A stretch of 64,000 bases of DNA, from contig NZ_CP049910.1 of assembly GCF_011305995.1 (NCBI RefSeq), forward strand, positions 5,470,501 through 5,534,500, written 5' to 3'. Positions 55,938 to 64,000 of the stretch are shown one piece after another. This DNA is from Diaphorobacter sp. HDW4A (lineage in GTDB: Bacteria; Pseudomonadota; Gammaproteobacteria; Burkholderiales; Burkholderiaceae_C). Made by a program: the position numbers and the translations under genes. The notes below the pieces were generated by a model that was given only the letters and a program-made list of their open reading frames with translations, ran no database searches and had not been told where the DNA came from. Every line of letters begins with the position of its first letter. Position 1 is the stretch's first letter.

Positions 55938-56339
55938 TCAATACTTGATGCGAAGAGGGTCGAGGCTATCCACTTGCAGCGGTGCCGCCGAGCTAGATGA
56001 CGATGCTTGGCTTGCCATGTAAGCAGGCGGAGTTCTGCCTACCTCGCCTTTACTACGTGCTCTCTGACGCTGCGTTGCACGAGATGTAAAGGTGAGTGGG
56101 TTAACGGTCGGAACAGGCGCTACGGTATCTAGCCAAGACTCGCGACCGAGAGCGCGCACCACACTTAAGAGTGTTTTGACTGTAGTGCCTCCGCCGCTTT
56201 CAAGATTACGCAGCGCACGCACGCTCACCCCAGCACGAGCAGCAAGCGTCTTCTGTTCAATGTTCTTGTTCAGACGCAGCAACTTGAGCTTTTCGCCCAA
56301 GCCAATTTCCATCTCGGCTACGGTTTTATTGGTCGTCAT
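55938..56339 (-). CDS. HipB-like XRE family transcriptional regulator
   Basis: 133 residues from the ATG at 56339, with GAGGAA 9 bases before it. Helix-turn-helix: LGEKLKLLRLNKNIEQKTLA, then ARAGVSVRALRNLESG. The following TTVKTLLSVVRALGRESWLDT and the segment with PLTFTSRATQRQRAR are typical of the regulators encoded with HipA-type kinases. Such proteins repress their own promoter and neutralise the toxin. No hipA follows, so it is an orphan. The C-terminal tail is Ser/Ala-rich. Confidence 0.8.
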   Translation of the reverse strand: MTTNKTVAEMEIGLGEKLKLLRLNKNIEQKTLAARAGVSVRALRNLESGGGTTVKTLLSVVRALGRESWLDTVAPVPTVNPLTFTSRATQRQRARSKGEVGRTPPAYMASQASSSSSAAPLQVDSLDPLRIKY

Positions 56340-56557
56340 GCGGTTCCTCACAATTGCCCTAAGTCTGCCTTTTAACTTGAAAATACGTGTTAAACGACCC
56401 TTTAAGGCATTTTATGACGAATAGCCATTTAGGGAGATTACTGGCACACGAATCGTCCGAGCTGAGTTCAACTTGCCGCTTTGAGGTGAAGAAGTCGTAC
56501 TTCTTACCTCATCATTTGCTAGCTGACTCGCAACGGCGTTGACGGAGAAGCCGGTCT

Positions 56558-56611
56558 TAATCTTCTCAATCTTCTCACTTTGATAAGAATTTGATGAGAT
56601 TGATAAGATTA
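56558..56611. repeat. Large imperfect inverted repeat
   Basis: TAATCTTCTCAATC (56558-56571) pairs with GATTGATAAGATTA (56598-56611), 13 of 14 positions, with a 26-base loop that contains further CTTCTC and GATAAG units. A smaller dyad, AAGAAGT-CGT-ACTTCTT, lies near 56488-56505. The region 56340-56635 upstream of the HipB-like gene has no gene. Confidence 0.55.
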
Positions 56612-56635
56612 GTTAGACACAGGTGCTTCAAGGAA

Positions 56636-57183
56636 CTAGAACGCGAGAACATCTTGCAGGAGCTGCAGCATGGAGTGAAACGGTGCGGCTTCCCCAACCT
56701 GTTGCTTTCTGGGGCTGGACAAGGTCGCAAGCGCATTCCCTGCGGCCAAAAGCTTCATCTCGCGCTGCTACAGACCTGCATGTCGAGCCAACTCCTCGGC
56801 GCAGTTGAAGGGGGTAACCGCGCGCTCGACCTGGATGCGTTCCGCGCTTTCTCTGCGTAGGCCGCTGACCATTCGTAGCCCGAGTCAAACGGCGGGCTCC
56901 TGCCCAGCGTCTTCAAGCATGCAGTCGACGTTGCAGTGCATGACGTTCATCGGCCGTACTTCAACGCCGTGGCGGATTGCGTCCTGCACGAGCTGGCTTG
57001 GGGAATAGACTCCTAGGGGGAAACGATTCAGCATCGCCGCCAGGAAGGCTGCGGGCCCATGATGCTTCAACCAGCATGAGGCGTAGACCAGCAGCGCAAA
57101 GCTCGCGGCTGGCTTACCGGAAAACCGTAGCTCGAGAACCCCTTTATCTGTTCGGAGATGGCGTCTGCAAAGTTCCGTTCTAC
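56636..57183 (-). pseudogene. dnaE2: Error-prone DNA polymerase (dnaE2/imuC) remnant
   Basis: The minus strand reads NFADAISEQIKGFSSYGFP, then after a 1-base shift ASFALLVYASCWLKHHGPAA, AMLNRFPLGVYSPSQLVQDA and HGVEVRPM, which are strong DnaE2 signatures. The same frame continues LGLRMVSGLRRESAERIQ and CAEELARHAGL with stop codons TGA and TAG replacing residues, ending at TAG 56636. About 180 of over 1000 residues survive. No imuA or imuB is nearby. Confidence 0.85.
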
Positions 57184-57187
57184 CTAC

Positions 57188-57754
57188 TCATTCGACCCAA
57201 GTTGAACCACTACGACGTAACTTAAGAAGTCGTCGCATCAGTTTGAACTCGTACTCTTGCAGTCCTTTTCCTTCCCAGCACATCAACACAAACTCTCTTT
57301 TTAAATGGCTCCAAAAATGGAGACCTGTGCAAGAGACTTCGTCGTCTAGAACAACCCATTGACTCTCCGCTTCAGGATGCCGGGAAAGCCACTGCGAGAC
57401 TTCTGCAATCCTGTGCGCACTCCGAGAAATCTGCGGGGTGCACCAGTCGTCATGCAGGTTGCTAGCAACAAAACCCAGCCCTCCGAGCTGCAAGATTTGG
57501 ACCAACATGTCACGGTCGAAGAACCATCGCCAACTAGTCGATAGGACATATATTGGCGAAAACTCCTCATGCAGCAGATGAAGATGTCGCTTGGCGGCTA
57601 GGTCAAACAGGCACCCCCACAAAGCAGGTCTAGTTTCGATTGGCTCCCCGCTCCGAACGGATTCCGCATACGCTTCAAGTACGTCATACCCACCATATGG
57701 GCTGTTTAGGCAAATGACATCATCAAAATCCAAAAAAACTAGGGGTCGAGTCAT
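57188..57754 (-). CDS. HAD-fold protein
   Basis: 188 residues from the ATG at 57754 (a start four codons earlier is possible). The phosphatase-like motifs of the HAD superfamily are present: motif I RPLVFLDFDDVICL with DxD-type acids, motif II IYVLSTSWRW, and motif IV VVLDDEVSC. This layout (STSWR, DDE) matches small HAD domains found in bacterial nucleic-acid repair and phage-conflict proteins. The substrate is unknown. It may be co-transcribed with the hypothetical gene upstream; it lies against the dnaE2 remnant. Confidence 0.75.
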   Translation of the reverse strand: MTRPLVFLDFDDVICLNSPYGGYDVLEAYAESVRSGEPIETRPALWGCLFDLAAKRHLHLLHEEFSPIYVLSTSWRWFFDRDMLVQILQLGGLGFVASNLHDDWCTPQISRSAHRIAEVSQWLSRHPEAESQWVVLDDEVSCTGLHFWSHLKREFVLMCWEGKGLQEYEFKLMRRLLKLRRSGSTWVE

Positions 57755-57871
57755 CCGGTAGTCCATGAGAAAAATTTGAGTAAATCCAGACCGAAATTAC
57801 GAGTGCCTGGGAAGTCAAGAATGCTCATGCCGAGGGTGAATCCAACAATGACACCGTTGCAATGCCCCTGT

Positions 57872-58312
57872 TCAACATATTTCGAATAGCTTGGTCCAGC
57901 TGCCTCGGTCTTCTTCGTTGACTGGAGCCAGCGTGTACGCATCTTTAAAACGACCAGGCTCACCAGCAAATTGAAGATAGGCAACATGGACCTCGTGTCC
58001 AGGTCGTGTCCAAACTTCGGCAACTTCGCGAGAGCGCCAGGATGAGTTTTCGTGCGTTCGAGCGAGACAGTCGACCGATAGAATTTTTGTGACTGAGGGA
58101 AGGATGCTCAACTTCCAGAATGAGCCCGCGTCTGACGCGAGATGAGTTATTTCGGCTGGACCTGTGCCTAAATCCTGCAACAGCGTCACAGTGAACATGG
58201 GCCGCTTGCCCTGCTTGATGACTGAAGTCCAGTGCCCCCCTCCACTTGGCACAGGAAAAAATTTATCAAGAAGTCGGTTGTGAGTGCGGTACTCCGGAGG
58301 GCAAAGAAACAT
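57872..58312 (-). CDS. Hypothetical protein of the accessory island
   Basis: 146 residues, soluble, mixed composition (MFLCPPEYRTHNRLLDKFFP at the start). I do not recognise a family. A second frame (57751-58023) overlaps its 3' part and ends with a 4-base overlap to the HAD gene, so a frameshifted longer gene cannot be ruled out. It diverges from an XRE regulator gene, and its promoter region holds palindromes. Confidence 0.5.
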   Translation of the reverse strand: MFLCPPEYRTHNRLLDKFFPVPSGGGHWTSVIKQGKRPMFTVTLLQDLGTGPAEITHLASDAGSFWKLSILPSVTKILSVDCLARTHENSSWRSREVAEVWTRPGHEVHVAYLQFAGEPGRFKDAYTLAPVNEEDRGSWTKLFEIC

Positions 58313-58389
58313 CGGTTGCGGTCAGTAATTGGCCGGCAATTGTGACATATAAGGAGTAGTCCTAAAACGAGTATACATGTATGGAGTCG

Positions 58390-58407
58390 ACACGTAGGAC
58401 CACGTGT
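58390..58407. promoter_or_regulatory. Candidate operator of the XRE regulator
   Basis: ACACGT-AGGACC-ACGTGT is a perfect 6-base inverted repeat, 14 bases before the XRE start. A further palindrome, ATACATGTAT, lies at about 58374-58383. Both are in the divergent promoter between the XRE gene and the hypothetical/HAD pair. Confidence 0.5.
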
Positions 58408-58420
58408 TTGACACTTAAGC

Positions 58421-58696
58421 ATGCCCATTCCCAAGTTGCCAAAGCCAGCGCAAGCTGTGCCCCTGAAAGTTGTACTGGCCTACCAGATGAAGAAGTACAG
58501 AGCAAAGTTGGGGTGTTCGCAGGAAGAGTTGAGCTATCTTGCTGGGATACATCGTGCGGCTGTAGGACATATCGAAAACGGCAGACGCAACGTCACTCTA
58601 GAAACGCTTGAGGCCTTGGCTGGAGCTCTTCAGGTAGCTCCCAACAAGCTACTTGAACTTCCTGCAGAACTCAAACAGCAGCAAAAATCTGAATAG
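58421..58696 (+). CDS. XRE family helix-turn-helix regulator
   Basis: 91 residues. HTH_3 domain: KYRAKLGCSQEELSYLAGIH, then RAAVGHIENGRRNVTLETLE and ALAGALQVAPNKLLEL. It is a short Cro/C1-like DNA-binding protein with a Gln/Lys tail. Similar small regulators are the controller proteins of restriction-modification and toxin-antitoxin systems. It diverges from the hypothetical/HAD genes and probably regulates them. No ribosome site is obvious. Confidence 0.85.
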   Translation: MPIPKLPKPAQAVPLKVVLAYQMKKYRAKLGCSQEELSYLAGIHRAAVGHIENGRRNVTLETLEALAGALQVAPNKLLELPAELKQQQKSE

Positions 58697-58781
58697 CGGA
58701 CGATGTTTTTTGTGGTTGCGTCGACTTGCGTAAAGAAGCGAGCGACTGGTATTTTTTGCCGCAGTTCGTCAATTGGCGCAT

Positions 58782-59812
58782 GGCGTTGTTGCATAAATCG
58801 GCCATAGGTCGAGACGTCCCCAATCCCAAATGGATTTACGCAGCAGCGACCATCTGGGGCATGTCCAGCACGGTAAATTGATTGAGGATAGATGCTCAGA
58901 TATTGAGCTTGGCCACCTGCTGCTCAAACGTCCTAGCCATCACTTTCTCGCCTAGGCGCTTGAAGCAATTCATCTTGGTCTCCACCAGGAATTTCGGTGG
59001 TATCCGCTCCAGCGTTTCCAGATAGCCCGCCCAACTGCCTGCACGCCTTGAACGCTGCATTGCGCTGCGCAAATGCCAGGCCTTTGCGCAGCTTTGCTCC
59101 TTTGCGCGGTGGGATGATTGGAATAGCTCCCCTCGGGTAGCAGTCCTCATGTACATCCTTGGTGCCATATGCCCCATCACCTGTAAAGCTAGCTAGCTGT
59201 TCATGCCTGAGGATTTGGCCCAGTAAGGCTGCTGGCATGGGTGAGTCGCCCACTTCATGGGTGGTCACTGCAATGGCCCGTATCAGCAGCGTCTCGGCAT
59301 CGATACCCAGATGCACCTTGCGCCACTGGCGGCGGCACTCTGCGCCGTGCTTCTCGGTCTTCTACTCACCTTCGCCCAAGAATTTGATGCCCGTGAAGTC
59401 AGCAAGCATATGCACGCCCTTAGTACTTGCCTTGTAGTGCACCTGCACGTCCAAGCTCTTTTGCCTACGGCACACTGTGCTGTAGTCGGGAGCGGTCCAC
59501 AGCAAGCCCGCCATACCAAATAGCGACTGCACCAAGCCTAGTGTCTGACGCAAGGGCTGGCCAAACAAGCACTTAATGGTCAGGCAAAACTGGATGGCTG
59601 CATCTGAGAACTTCTGGCAACGACCACGCTTGCCCGTAGGCAGGGCTAGCCACTGCATGTCCCTATCGAGCCAGATGCTCAGTTCCTCTCGCGCCTTCAA
59701 CGCTGCGTTGTACGCCTTCCAGTTTGTAGTGCGGTATTTGCGCCGCCCCCAGCTCGTCTCACTCATCCCCCGAGCCTACGCTAACCGAGGAAAGCGTTTG
59801 CGCAACAAGGCC
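58782..59812 (-). mobile_element. Decayed IS5-family insertion sequence
   Basis: About 1031 bp between imperfect terminal repeats: GGCGTTGTTGCATAAATCG (58782-58800) and, inverted, GGCCTTGTTGCGCAAACGC (ending at 59812). The single transposase gene inside is inactivated. No target duplication is visible. The element abuts an IS3 remnant on its right side. Confidence 0.8.
58836..59766 (-). pseudogene. IS5-family transposase, inactivated
   Basis: The reading runs from MSETSWGRRKYRTTNWKAYN at 59766 through DYSTVCRRQKSLDVQVHY and HMLADFTGIKFLGEGE, where TAG at 59362 replaces a Trp codon. It continues in the same frame (WRKVHLGIDAETLLIRAIAV, split by family motif DGAYGTKDVHE). A frameshift near 59040 leads to PPKFLVETKMNCFKRLGEKV, and a TGA at 58896 precedes the true C-terminus ILNQFTVLDMPQMVAAA. 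Three lesions make it non-functional unless suppressed. Confidence 0.88.
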
Positions 59813-59839
59813 GAGGGCCGAGGGTAACGTCGGTCCACA

Positions 59840-59985
59840 GACGGTATCCTCAACTACATCGAGATGTTCTACAAACCCAAGTGGCGCCACTGCGTTGCCG
59901 GAGAAATTTCTCCGATAGAGGTCAATAGACGTTATTCCCAACGGCTCAAAAGTGTCTAGGGAATCCTGAGCGATTCAATATTCAA
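59840..59985 (+). pseudogene. IS3-family OrfB C-terminus with element end
   Basis: Codons read ILNYIEMFYKPKWRH, then GEISPIEVNRRYSQRLKSV and a stop at 59957-59959, followed by TCTAGGGAATCCTGAGCGATT, which resembles an IS3-type terminal repeat shortened here. The rest of the element is missing; the IS5 element lies directly to its left. Confidence 0.78.
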
Positions 59986-60145
59986 GTGTCCATTCCTAAT
60001 AGATTCAACAAGTTGGATATACCTCACGCAATTGCGGAGGCATAGCTACCGTTGGGTTTTGGGTGTTTCGGCTTCAGGCCGCTTTGGTTAACTGCGTGGC
60101 GTTACTGTTAAGCTTGCCAAAATAGATAATTGAAACCATTTGCAA

Positions 60146-63073
60146 ATGCTTCCGTTCGCCCCCGGCTCCCGCGCTGTCATCCGTGATGAGGAGTGGCTCA
60201 TTCGACGCATCGACCCCTCCGCCGACGGTGGCTGGCTCCTCACCTGCGATGGTATTTCTGACCTTGTTCGGGGGCAGCCCGCACTCTTTCTGACTGCTCT
60301 GGAAGACACCATCGAGGTGCTCGACCCCGCCAAAACCGAGCTGGTGCCAGACACTAGCCCCACATACAACGCCACCGTGCTGTACCTAGAGAGCCTGCGG
60401 CGGCGCAGCGTGGTCAACGACGACAAGATTCACCTAGGCCATCGCGGCGTGATGAATCTGGTGCCTTACCAGTTGGACCCCGCCCTGCAAGCGCTGAAAC
60501 AACCGCGCTCCCGCATATTGATTGCCGACTCAGTGGGCTTGGGCAAAACGCTAGAGGCAGGCATTCTCGCCACCGAGCTGATTCAGCGTGGCCGTGGCAA
60601 GCGCATTCTGGTGGTCACCCAAAAAGCCATGCTAACCCAGTTCCAAAAGGAGTGGTGGAGCCGCTTTTCCATTCCGCTGGTACGGCTTGATTCTGTCGGC
60701 CTGGCTCGGGTCCGTAACCGCATTCCGGCTAACCACAATCCGTTCAATTACTTCGACCGCAGCATCATCTCTATCGACACGCTCAAGAGCAATCTGGAGT
60801 ACCGCAACTACCTCGAAAACGCCTGGTGGGACATCATCGTCATTGACGAGTGCCACAACGTCGCAGCTCGCGCGGGCGAGTCTGCGCTGTCGCGCCGCGC
60901 ACGGCTGGCGCGGCTACTGTCCAACCGGTCCGACACGCTCATGTTGCTGTCTGCGACGCCACACGATGGCTCGGCGCGCAGTTTTGCCTCACTGATGAGC
61001 CTCCTCGACCCCACCGCCATTGCCGACCCCGACGACTACACCCCCGAAGACTTCCGCAGCAAGGGCCTGGTCATCAGGCGATTCAAGAAAGACATCAAAG
61101 ACCAAGTGCAGGCTGACTTTCAAGAGCGCCAGACCGTATGCCTGCGCCAACCGGCTAGCGCGCCGGAAGAGGCAGCCTACCGCGCTTTGCTCGACGTGGC
61201 CTTCACTCAGGGTGGCCAGCACAAGGCCGGGCGCCAGCAGGAGCTGCAGCGCATCGGTCTGCAGAAGGGCCTATTTTCGAGCCCGGCTGCGGCGCTGGAG
61301 TCCACCGTCAAGCGCATGGAGCTGCTGTCCAGCAAATCCAGCCCCACGCACGAGGAACATACCGAAGTGCGCGGTCTGGAGGAACTGGCCCACAGCCTGC
61401 GGGCGTTGACCTCTGACGCCTCTGCACAAGGCTTCAGCAAATACCAACGCCTGCTCGCCCACCTTCGCTCGCCCGACTTTGCCTGGAAGACCGGCGAAGC
61501 CTCTGACCGCTTGGTCATTTTCTCTGAGCGCATTGAAACACTGCGCTGGCTGCAAGCACAGCTCGCCGCCGACCTGAAGATGAAGCCCAACCAACTGGCC
61601 GTGCTGCATGGCCAGATGGCAGATACCGAGCAGCAAGACCTGGTGGACCGCTTTGGCCGGCTGGACGACCCCATCCGCGTGCTGTTGTGCTCTGATGTGG
61701 CCAGTGAAGGGCTGAACCTGCACTACTTCTGCCACCGTCTGGTGCATTTCGATTTGCCTTGGTCGCTCATGGTCTTCCAGCAGCGCAACGGCCGGGTGGA
61801 CCGCTACGGTCAAAAGCACCAGCCGCAAATCGTGTACCTGTTCACCGAGGCCACCACCGACAAAATCAAGGGCGACCTGCGTATTCTGGAGATTCTGGCA
61901 GCGAAGGACGAGCAGGCAGCCCTGAACCTGGGCGACCCATCTGCCTTCTTGAACGTCTTTGACCCTGACAAAGAAGTCGAAAAAGTCGCAAATTTCATGG
62001 TCGAGGGTATGAGTCCAGAGCAGGTCGAGACTAAGTTGGACAAAGCTGCGACGGATGAGGACGACAACGAAGGCGACTACCTGCTCAGCCTTTTCGGCGG
62101 AGACGAAGTACCGGTAACCGTTAGCAGCACCAGTCAGATTGACGAGGCCACGTCCCTGTTCGACAGCGACTATCACTACACCAAGACCGCGCTCACCCAG
62201 CTCAACCAGGGCCACCAGTCCAACCACCTGTGCCAGTGGACGCCCCACGACGCCGAGCAAATCATTGCCCTGACTGCGCCGCGCGACCTGCAAGAACGCC
62301 TCAAGCAGCTCCCGCGTGAAGTGCAGGCCGTCAACGACCTCTACTCCCTGTGCGCCAATCCCCAGCGCATGGCCGAAGCCATCGAAACCGCTCGCCAGGC
62401 CCGCTCTGAAGACGACACCTGGCCCCAGCTGCATTACCTGTGGCCGCAACACCCCATCATGGATTGGCTGGGCGACCGCGTGCTCACTCACTTTGGCCGC
62501 CACCGCGCGCCGCTGCTGCAAAGCGGCAAGTTGCAGCCGCACGAGCAAGCCTTCATCCTCATGAGCATGGTGCCCAACCGCAAAGGCCAACCCCTGCTGG
62601 TCGAGTGGCAAGTGGCGCACCGCATTGGCAACGGCCCCTTCGTGCTTGAATCGTTCGACACCTTTGCCGCCCGTGCTGGCCTGCGCGCAGGCGGGCTACC
62701 GAACCGGGGCCACAGCGAAGCGCTAGCGGGCACCTGCGCCGTCATGCAGCAAGCTTTGCCCTTAGCGGTAGAAAAAATGCATGCCCACATGCAAGGCAAG
62801 CAGGCCACGTTCGCCTGCCAGCTAGATGAACGCCTGAAAGGCACATTGGCAGAGCTGCAGCGCCTACAAGGCCGCCAGGTTGAGCAGCTCACCCTGGAAC
62901 TGGAAAAGCAGTTGGAGACTGTCAAACGCGGCCGCTTCGAGCAGCGCAGCCAACAAATCAACCGCGTTTTTGACGACTATCGCCAATGGGTGCAAGACAC
63001 CCTCTCCACTGAACCCCAGCCTTGGATTCAGGTGCTCGCCGGTGTTTGTCACCCTCAAATAGCTGGAGCGTGA
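60146..63073 (+). CDS. SNF2-family helicase, DrmD-like
   Basis: 975 residues from the ATG at 60146. After an N-terminal beta-rich segment with VIRDEEWLIRRID, the two helicase lobes carry Walker A ADSVGLGKTLEAG (GLGKT 131-135), DECH box IIVIDECHNV (234-237), motif III LLSATPHDGS, and motif VI QQRNGRVDRYGQ (QRNG starts at 546). The C-terminal 350 residues have a Gln-rich helical tail. The architecture matches the helicase DrmD of class 1 DISARM phage-defence systems. The next gene, two bases on, is large and looks like the start of a DNA methyltransferase, as in that system. Other SNF2 proteins (ZorD, RapA-type) are possible alternatives. Confidence 0.85.
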   Translation: MLPFAPGSRAVIRDEEWLIRRIDPSADGGWLLTCDGISDLVRGQPALFLTALEDTIEVLDPAKTELVPDTSPTYNATVLYLESLRRRSVVNDDKIHLGHRGVMNLVPYQLDPALQALKQPRSRILIADSVGLGKTLEAGILATELIQRGRGKRILVVTQKAMLTQFQKEWWSRFSIPLVRLDSVGLARVRNRIPANHNPFNYFDRSIISIDTLKSNLEYRNYLENAWWDIIVIDECHNVAARAGESALSRRARLARLLSNRSDTLMLLSATPHDGSARSFASLMSLLDPTAIADPDDYTPEDFRSKGLVIRRFKKDIKDQVQADFQERQTVCLRQPASAPEEAAYRALLDVAFTQGGQHKAGRQQELQRIGLQKGLFSSPAAALESTVKRMELLSSKSSPTHEEHTEVRGLEELAHSLRALTSDASAQGFSKYQRLLAHLRSPDFAWKTGEASDRLVIFSERIETLRWLQAQLAADLKMKPNQLAVLHGQMADTEQQDLVDRFGRLDDPIRVLLCSDVASEGLNLHYFCHRLVHFDLPWSLMVFQQRNGRVDRYGQKHQPQIVYLFTEATTDKIKGDLRILEILAAKDEQAALNLGDPSAFLNVFDPDKEVEKVANFMVEGMSPEQVETKLDKAATDEDDNEGDYLLSLFGGDEVPVTVSSTSQIDEATSLFDSDYHYTKTALTQLNQGHQSNHLCQWTPHDAEQIIALTAPRDLQERLKQLPREVQAVNDLYSLCANPQRMAEAIETARQARSEDDTWPQLHYLWPQHPIMDWLGDRVLTHFGRHRAPLLQSGKLQPHEQAFILMSMVPNRKGQPLLVEWQVAHRIGNGPFVLESFDTFAARAGLRAGGLPNRGHSEALAGTCAVMQQALPLAVEKMHAHMQGKQATFACQLDERLKGTLAELQRLQGRQVEQLTLELEKQLETVKRGRFEQRSQQINRVFDDYRQWVQDTLSTEPQPWIQVLAGVCHPQIAGA

Positions 63074-63075
63074 GA

Positions 63076-64000
63076 ATGCCCGCAATCGAAAATGTTCAAA
63101 CCTTCGCTGGTATCACCAACGAAAACGAGTTCTATAGCCACCCCTACCTGGCTGAAGTGTTCAAAGGCGACATCAAAGACCGCCTGACCGCTTGGGAGGC
63201 CGAAGAAGCCCAGCACGCCAGTGATGATGCTGGCGATACCAACCGCACGCCTAATAAACGCCTGCAAGCTTGGGCCCAGCGCTGGTTTGCCCTGCGAGGT
63301 CAGGTGCAGCGCGGCAAAGACGAGCACGAGCGCTGGCACGCCTTCATGCAGATGCAGTCCGGCCTGCTGCAAGCGCTGGGCTATGCGCCACCACCGCGCA
63401 CCCTCACGCTGCACGAACTGGCCAGCGGCCTGCCCCTGCCCCTGTGGCAGCTGCAAGGCCAGCGCCTTGCCATCATCCCCGCCTACCAGCCCAGCCGCGA
63501 AGACGACGACCTGCTCGACCACCAGCTCACCGCCTTTCACTACGGCACCGAGCCTTTGCCGACCCATATCAAGGGCGAGACCTGGGCCGAGTTGCTGTCA
63601 GACGCCGTATTTGGTGCCGACCAGCCCCCTCGCTACGTACTGCTGCTGGGCCTGGACGAATGGCTGCTGCTCGACCGTTACAAATGGCCCAACAACCGTG
63701 CCCTGCGCTTCAACTGGGCCGACATCCTTGACCGCAAAGACGCCGACACCCTCAAAGCCTGCGCCGCGCTCTTGCACCAAGACAGCTTGGCTCCGGGGGA
63801 GGGCAGCAGCCTGCTGGAGAGCCTGGACGAAAACGCCCACAAACACGCCTTTGGGGTCAGCGAAGATTTGAAATACGCCCTGCGCGAAGCCATTGAACTG
63901 CTGGGCAACGAAGCTGCCCGCCAGCTCGACGAACAAGCCAGCGGCAGCAAGAAAAGCGTTTACTCCGGCCAATACAAGCTCGACGCCAGCGTGCTCAGCC
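63076..64000 (+). CDS. N-terminus of a large protein, probably DNA methyltransferase (DrmMI-like)
   Basis: At least 308 residues from the ATG at 63076; GGAG precedes it and the frame is open to the right edge. The visible part is soluble, Trp- and Gln-rich; YVLLLGLDEWLLLDRYKWP and EDLKYALREAIELLGNEAAR resemble the N-terminal regions of Eco57I-type and DISARM methyltransferases. The catalytic NPPY and SAM motifs would lie further on, beyond this window. Coupled to the helicase gene with a 2-base gap. The methyltransferase call is inference from N-terminus and context. Confidence 0.55.
   Translation, partial: MPAIENVQTFAGITNENEFYSHPYLAEVFKGDIKDRLTAWEAEEAQHASDDAGDTNRTPNKRLQAWAQRWFALRGQVQRGKDEHERWHAFMQMQSGLLQALGYAPPPRTLTLHELASGLPLPLWQLQGQRLAIIPAYQPSREDDDLLDHQLTAFHYGTEPLPTHIKGETWAELLSDAVFGADQPPRYVLLLGLDEWLLLDRYKWPNNRALRFNWADILDRKDADTLKACAALLHQDSLAPGEGSSLLESLDENAHKHAFGVSEDLKYALREAIELLGNEAARQLDEQASGSKKSVYSGQYKLDASVLS

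Follow-up and report, generated by a model that had tools for sequence, protein, structure and literature searches.

A probable disrupted ARMADA type II operon in Diaphorobacter sp. HDW4A and the variable slot between its armB and armC genes

The analysed window is a stretch of 64,000 nucleotides (C1:5470501-5534500, where C1 is contig NZ_CP049910.1) of Diaphorobacter sp. HDW4A, whose genome comprises 6.76 Mb in three contigs. The right end of the window carries armA, a gene for an SNF2 family helicase, followed by the first part of a methyltransferase gene, armB; the other genes lie beyond it, with armC and armD 93-102 kb past the edge (Table 1). According to our analysis, the locus is very probably a disrupted ARMADA type II operon with the order armA-armB-cargo-armC-armD, in which the armB-armC junction forms an exchangeable slot for defence modules. 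An earlier reading of the sequence alone (the sequence-only reading) had noted an intact SNF2 helicase with its motif VI and a second gene two bases after the helicase stop, and both statements hold. The armA frame is already open from a TTG at 60140 (60140-63073, 977 aa), with the ATG at 60146, and encodes the motifs GLGKT, DECH, SATP and QRNGRVDR; armB begins with an ATG at 63076, two bases past the armA stop, and its frame is open to the window edge.

The same reading took the second product for an Eco57I/DrmMI-type methyltransferase at its N-terminus and the operon for one cut by the window edge, and each of these claims stands in part. The first part of ArmB does belong with the type IIG, DrmMI and ArmB families, but the methyltransferase motifs looked for (SYYTP, EPAMGS, NPPW) are all missing from it and lie in the distant second part. 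The frame runs on past the edge, but armB itself is interrupted 557 bp further, at C1:5535057, by an integrative and conjugative element (ICE). The core TAAAAAA is present at both ICE junctions (C1:5535057 and C1:5613014). The unbroken armB of relatives reads through this site with the consensus PAPKKGRAA, and the ICE, of the Tn4371 type with an integrase that uses T-tracts, therefore entered the A-run of two lysine codons.

Behind the ICE and the second part of armB, the operon continues with the genes mkoA and mkoB of a Mokosh type I system. The two parts of mkoB correspond to residues 1-273 and 271-500 of the 500-aa MkoB of Simplicispira metamorpha (97% and 92% identity) and are separated by 3.8 kb that include an IS66 transposase; this insertion has split mkoB. 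The frames of armA, armC and armD are open, those of armB and mkoB are split, and the 78 kb of the ICE lie between the two ends of the operon. The Mokosh part resembles known type I systems in the NERD, kinase-like and superfamily 1 helicase parts of MkoA and in the adjoining mkoB; it differs in being embedded between armB and armC and in its broken mkoB.

Table 1. Features of the HDW4A locus and genes found in the armB-armC slots of related loci (L, named loci; G, genomes of the family sample)
Feature	Position	Strand	Details
armA, SNF2/RapA-like (BrxHII/DrmD-like) helicase	window 60146..63073	+	ATG start
armB, first part	window 63076..64000	+	continues 556 bp beyond the edge, up to the ICE
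ICE, Tn4371-type, ~78 kb	C1:5535057-5613020		TrbI, coupling protein, DUF3363 relaxase-type protein, tyrosine integrase at far end
armB, second part	C1:5613021-5616800		SYYTP, EPAMGS and NPPW all here
mkoA, 1627 aa	C1:5616865-5621748		MkoA model 1-1603 of 1607, 1719 bits; NERD, kinase-like, AAA_11/AAA_12
mkoB, two parts	C1:5621745-5622563 and 5626361-5627050		around IS66-bearing insertion
armC, 2132 aa, YprA/MZB helicase	C1:5627574-5633972		DEAD, helicase C and MZB in one polypeptide
armD, 705 aa, UvrD helicase	C1:5633977-5636094		ArmD kind; last gene of the operon
IS5-type transposase remains, upstream of armA	window 58933..59775	-	broken over two frames; Pfam DDE_Tnp_1, DDE_Tnp_1_5
Small Xre-type helix-turn-helix protein, upstream of armA	window 58421..58696	+	open reading frame, Pfam; only a candidate operon member
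~240-aa family, five named slots	L061:16999-17724, L070:19522-20262, L082:7025-7747, L104:10057-10791, L113:10427-11158		
Slot cargo, Qat	L068		QatA 904, QatC 632, QatD 398 bits
Slot cargo, Zorya	L076		ZorA 595, ZorB 304 bits
Slot cargo, ZorD	L089		934 bits
Slot cargo, PsyrTA	G333		993 and 473 bits
Slot cargo, PifA-like KAP ATPases	L118, G256		
Slot cargo, GmrSD	L061, L063, L095		
Slot cargo, SIR2	L067		
Slot cargo, DrmD-like second SNF2 helicase	L061		854 bits
Slot cargo, Pfam matches	L112, G256, L065, L129		Schlafen, AbiEii, RES and HSP70, respectively

The assignment to ARMADA type II is based on comparison with Escherichia coli ATCC 8739, the strain of Figure 4 in the ARMADA paper (Bell et al., 2025, preprint; PMC12458937); we located its ARMADA II genes beside Druantia III and Zorya II. 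ArmA of HDW4A shows 48% identity to its counterpart (residues 6-970), both parts of ArmB 46% (the first to the ArmB N-terminus), ArmC 36% (1-2101 of 2132) and ArmD 42% (5-698 of 705), so that the same four genes occur in identical order with alignments nearly end to end. Type II has been described as an SNF2 helicase, a methyltransferase, a YprA helicase and a UvrD helicase, in that order, and the order has been called strict (PMC12458937). Likewise, in HDW4A the BrxHII/RapA-like ArmA comes first and the PglX/BrxX-like ArmB with its NPPW second; ArmC unites MZB/DUF1998 and a YprA helicase in one polypeptide, as in published ARMADA II, and the UvrD/GajB-like ArmD follows. The order is kept although armB and armC are not adjacent, being parted by Mokosh I and the IS66-bearing insertion, whereas the E. 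coli copies read, four in number, have them side by side. The split of armB by the ICE bears on activity and not on membership of ARMADA II; armB is unbroken in relatives.

Some features weigh against this assignment. ArmC shares no more than 36% identity with E. coli ArmC; in ArmD, the RelE-like domain was not seen, a PDB sequence search giving no match up to E 1, and the Vsr-type domain was not seen in ArmC, whose C-terminal 472 aa gave a single PDB match at E 0.17, which is no nuclease. The ArmD N-terminus of HDW4A does align with that of ATCC 8739. Another SNF2 locus in HDW4A (C1:3130657), checked over 40 kb for relatives of ArmA to ArmD, gave a weak ArmA match only (29-33%) and was rejected.

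In E. coli NCTC 12900, protection by ARMADA II depends on each of the four genes and on the NPPW motif, and infected cells remain viable (PMC12458937). The break in armB therefore likely switches ARMADA off in HDW4A, and, judging by the broken frames, both ARMADA II and Mokosh I of this strain are probably inactive.

The armB-armC junction in ARMADA II is a variable internal slot. Within a family sample of 399 genomes, HDW4A included, ArmA was matched at 1e-40 in 28; of the 27 besides HDW4A, the seven with the strongest matches were followed, and the other 20 matched at 29-35% identity. All seven relatives carry armA, armB, armC and armD in this order (armD of G393 lying beyond the stretch fetched). 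Their armB-armC interval measures 1.5-8.2 kb and is largely different in gene content; the genes shared are a KAP ATPase (G256, G081), a NOV_C-type protein (G081, G297) and a protein of ~270 aa (G262, G393). By contrast with this interval, armC and armD lie close together in the six of the seven relatives where both were seen, with gaps between high-scoring segment pairs of ~100 bp or less.

A wider set came from a scan with an ArmB profile, of which the best 80 of 214 named loci were used. Three of them coincide with members of the seven relatives above, namely G034 with L091 (Roseateles violae), G393 with L070 (Caenimonas) and G297 with L075 (Paucibacter), and among these best 80 the loci closest to HDW4A come mostly from Burkholderiales. 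Both the armB end and the armC start are visible in 58 of the 80. One of these, L128, was removed from the slot counts, as its helicase is DruE-like, and its DruH match was not counted as cargo. The slot is at most 120 bp long in 15 of the 57 remaining loci, 121-500 bp in 1, 501-1200 bp in 7 and more than 1200 bp in 34; restricted to the 55 loci with armA also seen, the same classes contain 15, 1, 7 and 32. The lengths for L069, L096 and L135 are underestimates, partial copies of armC or armB having been taken as real ends, and all three remain in the longest class.

The other two junctions were used as controls. The armA-armB interval, measurable in 71 loci, has a median of 3 bp and exceeds 250 bp in 11 and 1200 bp in 3, and the armC-armD interval, measurable in 30, has a median of 0.5 bp and exceeds 250 bp in 1 and 1200 bp in none. 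The corresponding figures for armB-armC are 43 and 35 of 58 (L128 included). When the comparison is confined to the 30 loci, biased towards short slots, in which all three junctions can be measured, the intervals armA-armB, armB-armC and armC-armD exceed 250 bp in 4, 15 and 1 loci, and 1200 bp in 0, 12 and 0, respectively. On a quick 60-row tree of the ArmB N-part (15 empty and 45 occupied), at least nine switches between the empty and the occupied state are required, a count to be read with the long branches in a few rows of that tree in mind. A 2-kb query spanning the armB-armC junction had matches in 519 of 5426 E. coli genomes, 475 of them with at least 80% in one place; the search joins pieces up to ~1.5 kb apart, and short inserts could hide within such matches.

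The slot contents were compared with Pfam and PADLOC for 30 proteins, mostly the larger open reading frames (ORFs), from 19 named loci (L128 later dropped) and two unnamed ones, and five further cargo proteins were compared with Pfam only. A PADLOC match at 1e-15 was obtained in 14 of the 18 named loci kept, and in none of L070, L112, L113 and L129. The matches include defence modules of several kinds (Table 1). Mokosh is not confined to HDW4A, being present also in the slots of Parazoarcus communis (L064; MkoA 86% at the amino acid level) and Simplicispira metamorpha (L069; MkoA 94%). Neither Pfam nor PADLOC gave a match for proteins of 1142 aa (Caenimonas, L070), 1121 aa (L107), 270 aa (L113) and 241 aa (L061), nor did Pfam, the sole database used for it, for a 615-aa protein of L061. 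For the ~240-aa family of Table 1, a search of the protein database yielded 330 relatives at E 0.001; its L061 member has no match in Pfam or PADLOC (1e-15), and the family profile has none in PDB.

The cargo is mostly oriented with the operon. Counting ORFs of at least 100 aa in the 42 slots longer than 250 bp (L128 left aside), 43,877 aa are co-directional and 2,993 aa opposed (94% co-directional), and in 30 of the 42 slots all such ORFs are co-directional. Of 40 slots, 27 have their first co-directional ORF starting no more than 70 nt from the stop of armB, and in 26 the last one ends no more than 120 nt from armC. These ORF counts rest on the same too-short ends of L069, L096 and L135 mentioned above, and the annotation of L069 omits its last ~1.9 kb.

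Nucleotide identities suggest how the cargo may move. HDW4A agrees with G262 and G256 at 86-87% in armA, 90% in the N-part of armB and 85-86% at the start of armC, and the three carry three different cargos. With L069, which shares the Mokosh cargo, identity reaches 91% at the 3' end of armB, 92% in mkoA and 95% in mkoB, and amounts to 77% in armA, 85% in the armB N-part and 74% at the armC start. The cargo, together with the armB 3' end, thus seems to have a history different from that of the surrounding arm genes, which we refer to as the chassis. Partial second copies of the armB 3' end are found in the slots of L096, L110, L129 and L135, and of the armC 5' end in those of L069, L072 and L120; they amount to 7 of the 42 named slots plus G333, and none was seen in HDW4A or the six other unnamed relatives. 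Such copies are the expected leftover of repeated homologous recombination at both edges of the slot.

Separately, a stretch of ~650 bp within armB of HDW4A (L008:9971-10630) has no blastn match in 18 rows (17 distinct loci, as G034 and L091 are one), and the armB stretches flanking it are up to 92% identical. It is presumably the target recognition domain, and the specificity of ArmB seems to be swapped too.

Based on these results, we propose that in an intact operon ArmB, a BrxX/PglX-like adenine methyltransferase, would mark self DNA and that the helicases ArmA, ArmC and ArmD would attack phage DNA that lacks the mark, leaving the cell alive; this sequence of marking and attack is our inference. 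The operon would act as a chassis into whose armB-armC slot other defence modules, such as Mokosh I in HDW4A, are swapped by homologous recombination via the armB 3' end and the armC start, and the cargo would share the transcription unit of the chassis. The fuller reading, that ARMADA II is a chassis with a dedicated cargo bay, that whole systems are exchanged by recombination through the conserved gene ends and sometimes stacked, leaving partial copies as scars, and that they are co-expressed as a second line against phages which overcome the chassis, is advanced tentatively, with slightly less than even confidence.

Several observations count against this proposal or limit it. Betaproteobacteria are over-represented in the best 80 of 214 loci because five of the six rows of the ArmB profile come from one family, and the occupancy rates are accordingly not global frequencies. 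The armC-armD junction could be measured mainly in loci with shorter slots, since the loci end 10 kb past armB, and armA-armB, longer than 250 bp in the 11 of 71 loci noted above, is also interrupted at times. All gene calls are ORF-based. Opposed ORFs of at least 100 aa occur in 12 of the 42 slots, and L088 and L094 hold opposed ones only; furthermore, some cargo is not defence-like, such as the glutathione S-transferase-like ORFs of L099 and L135 (by eye) and the HSP70 of L129. The armB 3' end is slightly more conserved than the rest of the gene in L065 and L066 as well (80-81% and 76-77%), with other cargo, and constraint may explain part of the signal in that region. Recombination is read from identities rather than observed, and the co-expression of chassis and cargo, like their anti-phage role, is predicted from sequence.

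The best surviving alternative, that the gap is a neutral insertion hotspot where stray or mobile genes gather in decaying ARMADA copies with no functional coupling, appears unlikely to us. It would suit the opposed and the non-defence cargo, and also the breaks observed in several loci: in addition to armB and mkoB of HDW4A, armA and armC of G256 are in pieces and armB of G333 is in two. Stray insertion would hardly lead one to expect the 94% co-directional cargo and the tight edges on both sides of the slot, nor multi-gene systems among the cargo (QatA/C/D, PsyrTA, ZorAB, MkoAB), and the armA-armB and armC-armD junctions are mostly tight. The tight spacing and the common orientation would equally be expected if the cargo consisted of true additional subunits of ARMADA II, that is, of subtypes with lineage-specific effectors rather than independent systems, and the recurrence of the ~240-aa family in five named slots points the same way. 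We nevertheless regard this explanation as rather improbable, since close relatives bear different cargo, the E. coli copies looked at bear none, and, going by the PADLOC names, Qat, Zorya and PsyrTA are each known as independent systems. Moreover, MkoA relatives (35-52% identity) were found in 4 of the 398 other genomes searched, and three of the MkoA-bearing genomes (G108, G116 and G376) had no ArmA match at 1e-40 in a search that scored first-look candidates only.

The class proposed in the sequence-only reading, a class 1 DISARM operon (drmD-drmMI-drmA-drmB-drmC) cut by the window edge, is hardly tenable: the start of the locus is indeed alike, with a DrmD/BrxHII-like helicase whose top single PADLOC match is DrmD (333 bits; BrxH 197) and a PglX-like methyltransferase that matches DrmMI (40 bits in the first part, 112 in the second), but the type IIG restriction-methylase models score far higher with the latter (178 and 598 bits), and the large helicase has DruE as its best PADLOC match (344 bits; DrmA 54 bits) and aligns with E. 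coli ArmC over nearly its whole length. DISARM requires a separate DrmB, and at E 0.001 the whole HDW4A genome has a single MZB (DUF1998-type) match, which is fused within armC; class 1 DISARM is therefore out. The drmA/drmB pair, whose absence downstream the sequence-only reading had itself named as refuting, is indeed lacking there, its place being taken by one protein with DEAD, helicase C and MZB parts and then by the UvrD helicase, and no match to drmC (phospholipase D-type nuclease) was found among the five downstream operon proteins to which that search was confined. What survives of the proposed class is a helicase-methyltransferase defence operon in a region rich in mobile elements.

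Inserts between armB and armC in ARMADA appear to be new relative to the searchable literature. The parts of PMC12458937 covered here make no mention of them, and no paper treating both Mokosh and ARMADA was found in the searchable literature, which leaves supplements and closed papers outside. The principle of embedded effectors is already known from BREX: auxiliary or backup effectors are embedded in BREX and BREX-related loci (Rakesh and Krishnan, 2026; PMC12839542), where nucleases and other effectors (GmrSD, Schlafen) lie inside the core of a methyltransferase-based system, much as here. Unlike these, ARMADA has one fixed junction that accepts multi-gene systems. That survey deals with BREX and its relatives, and its main text contains none of the terms DISARM, Mokosh, YprA and DUF1998.

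Should the slot prove real and functional, loci of ARMADA II would offer a pre-sorted site for the discovery of defence genes by position alone, and the ~240-aa family and the 1142-aa protein of Caenimonas would be candidates for new ones. They would also provide a testable case of defence systems stacked inside the operon of another system and not side by side in an island. Since the type II order was published as strict and the genes of ATCC 8739 are adjacent, many loci may be overlooked or divided by annotation rules that expect armB beside armC.

Upstream of armA, the IS5 remains reported in the sequence-only reading were recovered, broken over two frames, and the deviating base composition was likewise borne out, with 52.5% G+C at 56000-60139 against 62.2% in the whole window (60.9% in armA). 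The IS3 remains reported with them were not seen in the frames listed, a weak negative given that only five upstream ORFs were compared with Pfam. Broken minus-strand frames at window positions 56575-57187 resemble the error-prone polymerase DnaE2; a 100-aa piece of them has no Pfam match. To the right of armD, two genes for tyrosine recombinases of 418 and 475 aa stand in a row with a gene for 666 aa (C1:5637298-5642063). The 666-aa product has no Pfam match, and the recombinases are possibly those of an older element.

The ICE resembles the Tn4371 family in its trb genes, tyrosine integrase and T-tract attachment site; it differs in that its target is the coding sequence of a defence gene. 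Direct repeats published for this family are TTTTTCAT, TTTTTTAT and TTTTTTGT (PMC2789088), and the integrase-side junction in HDW4A is TTTTTTAT, as in published members. The T-tract is not universal: the repeat of ICEKKS102Tn4677 is 9 bp long and lies close to a tRNA gene (PMC11448139). Most of the related junctions seen have a hairpin directly beside the T-tract. Integrase-side junctions of 28 Tn4371-type ICEs were considered (L141-L168, HDW4A included; L169 and L170, of 30, lack the tract and were not counted). Of these 28, 24 have a hairpin of 5 or more pairs adjoining the tract (6 pairs in 20). In relatives, the corresponding figures are 64 (48 with 6 pairs) among 210 T5+ tracts and 902 (575) among 3000 positions chosen at random. 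Intrinsic terminators thus seem to be favoured by this family of ICEs; PMC2789088 does not use the word terminator. The HDW4A junction, although in coding sequence, also passes this hairpin test, which is a lax one. Inside the ICE, a co-directional gene run beside the integrase (C1:5598382-5611503) has AbiEii-like, AAA ATPase and UvrD-like members by eye and looks like further putative defence cargo. Another integrase gene, at C1:4983832-4985031, has a product with 82% identity to the ICE integrase and perhaps marks a second related element in the HDW4A genome.

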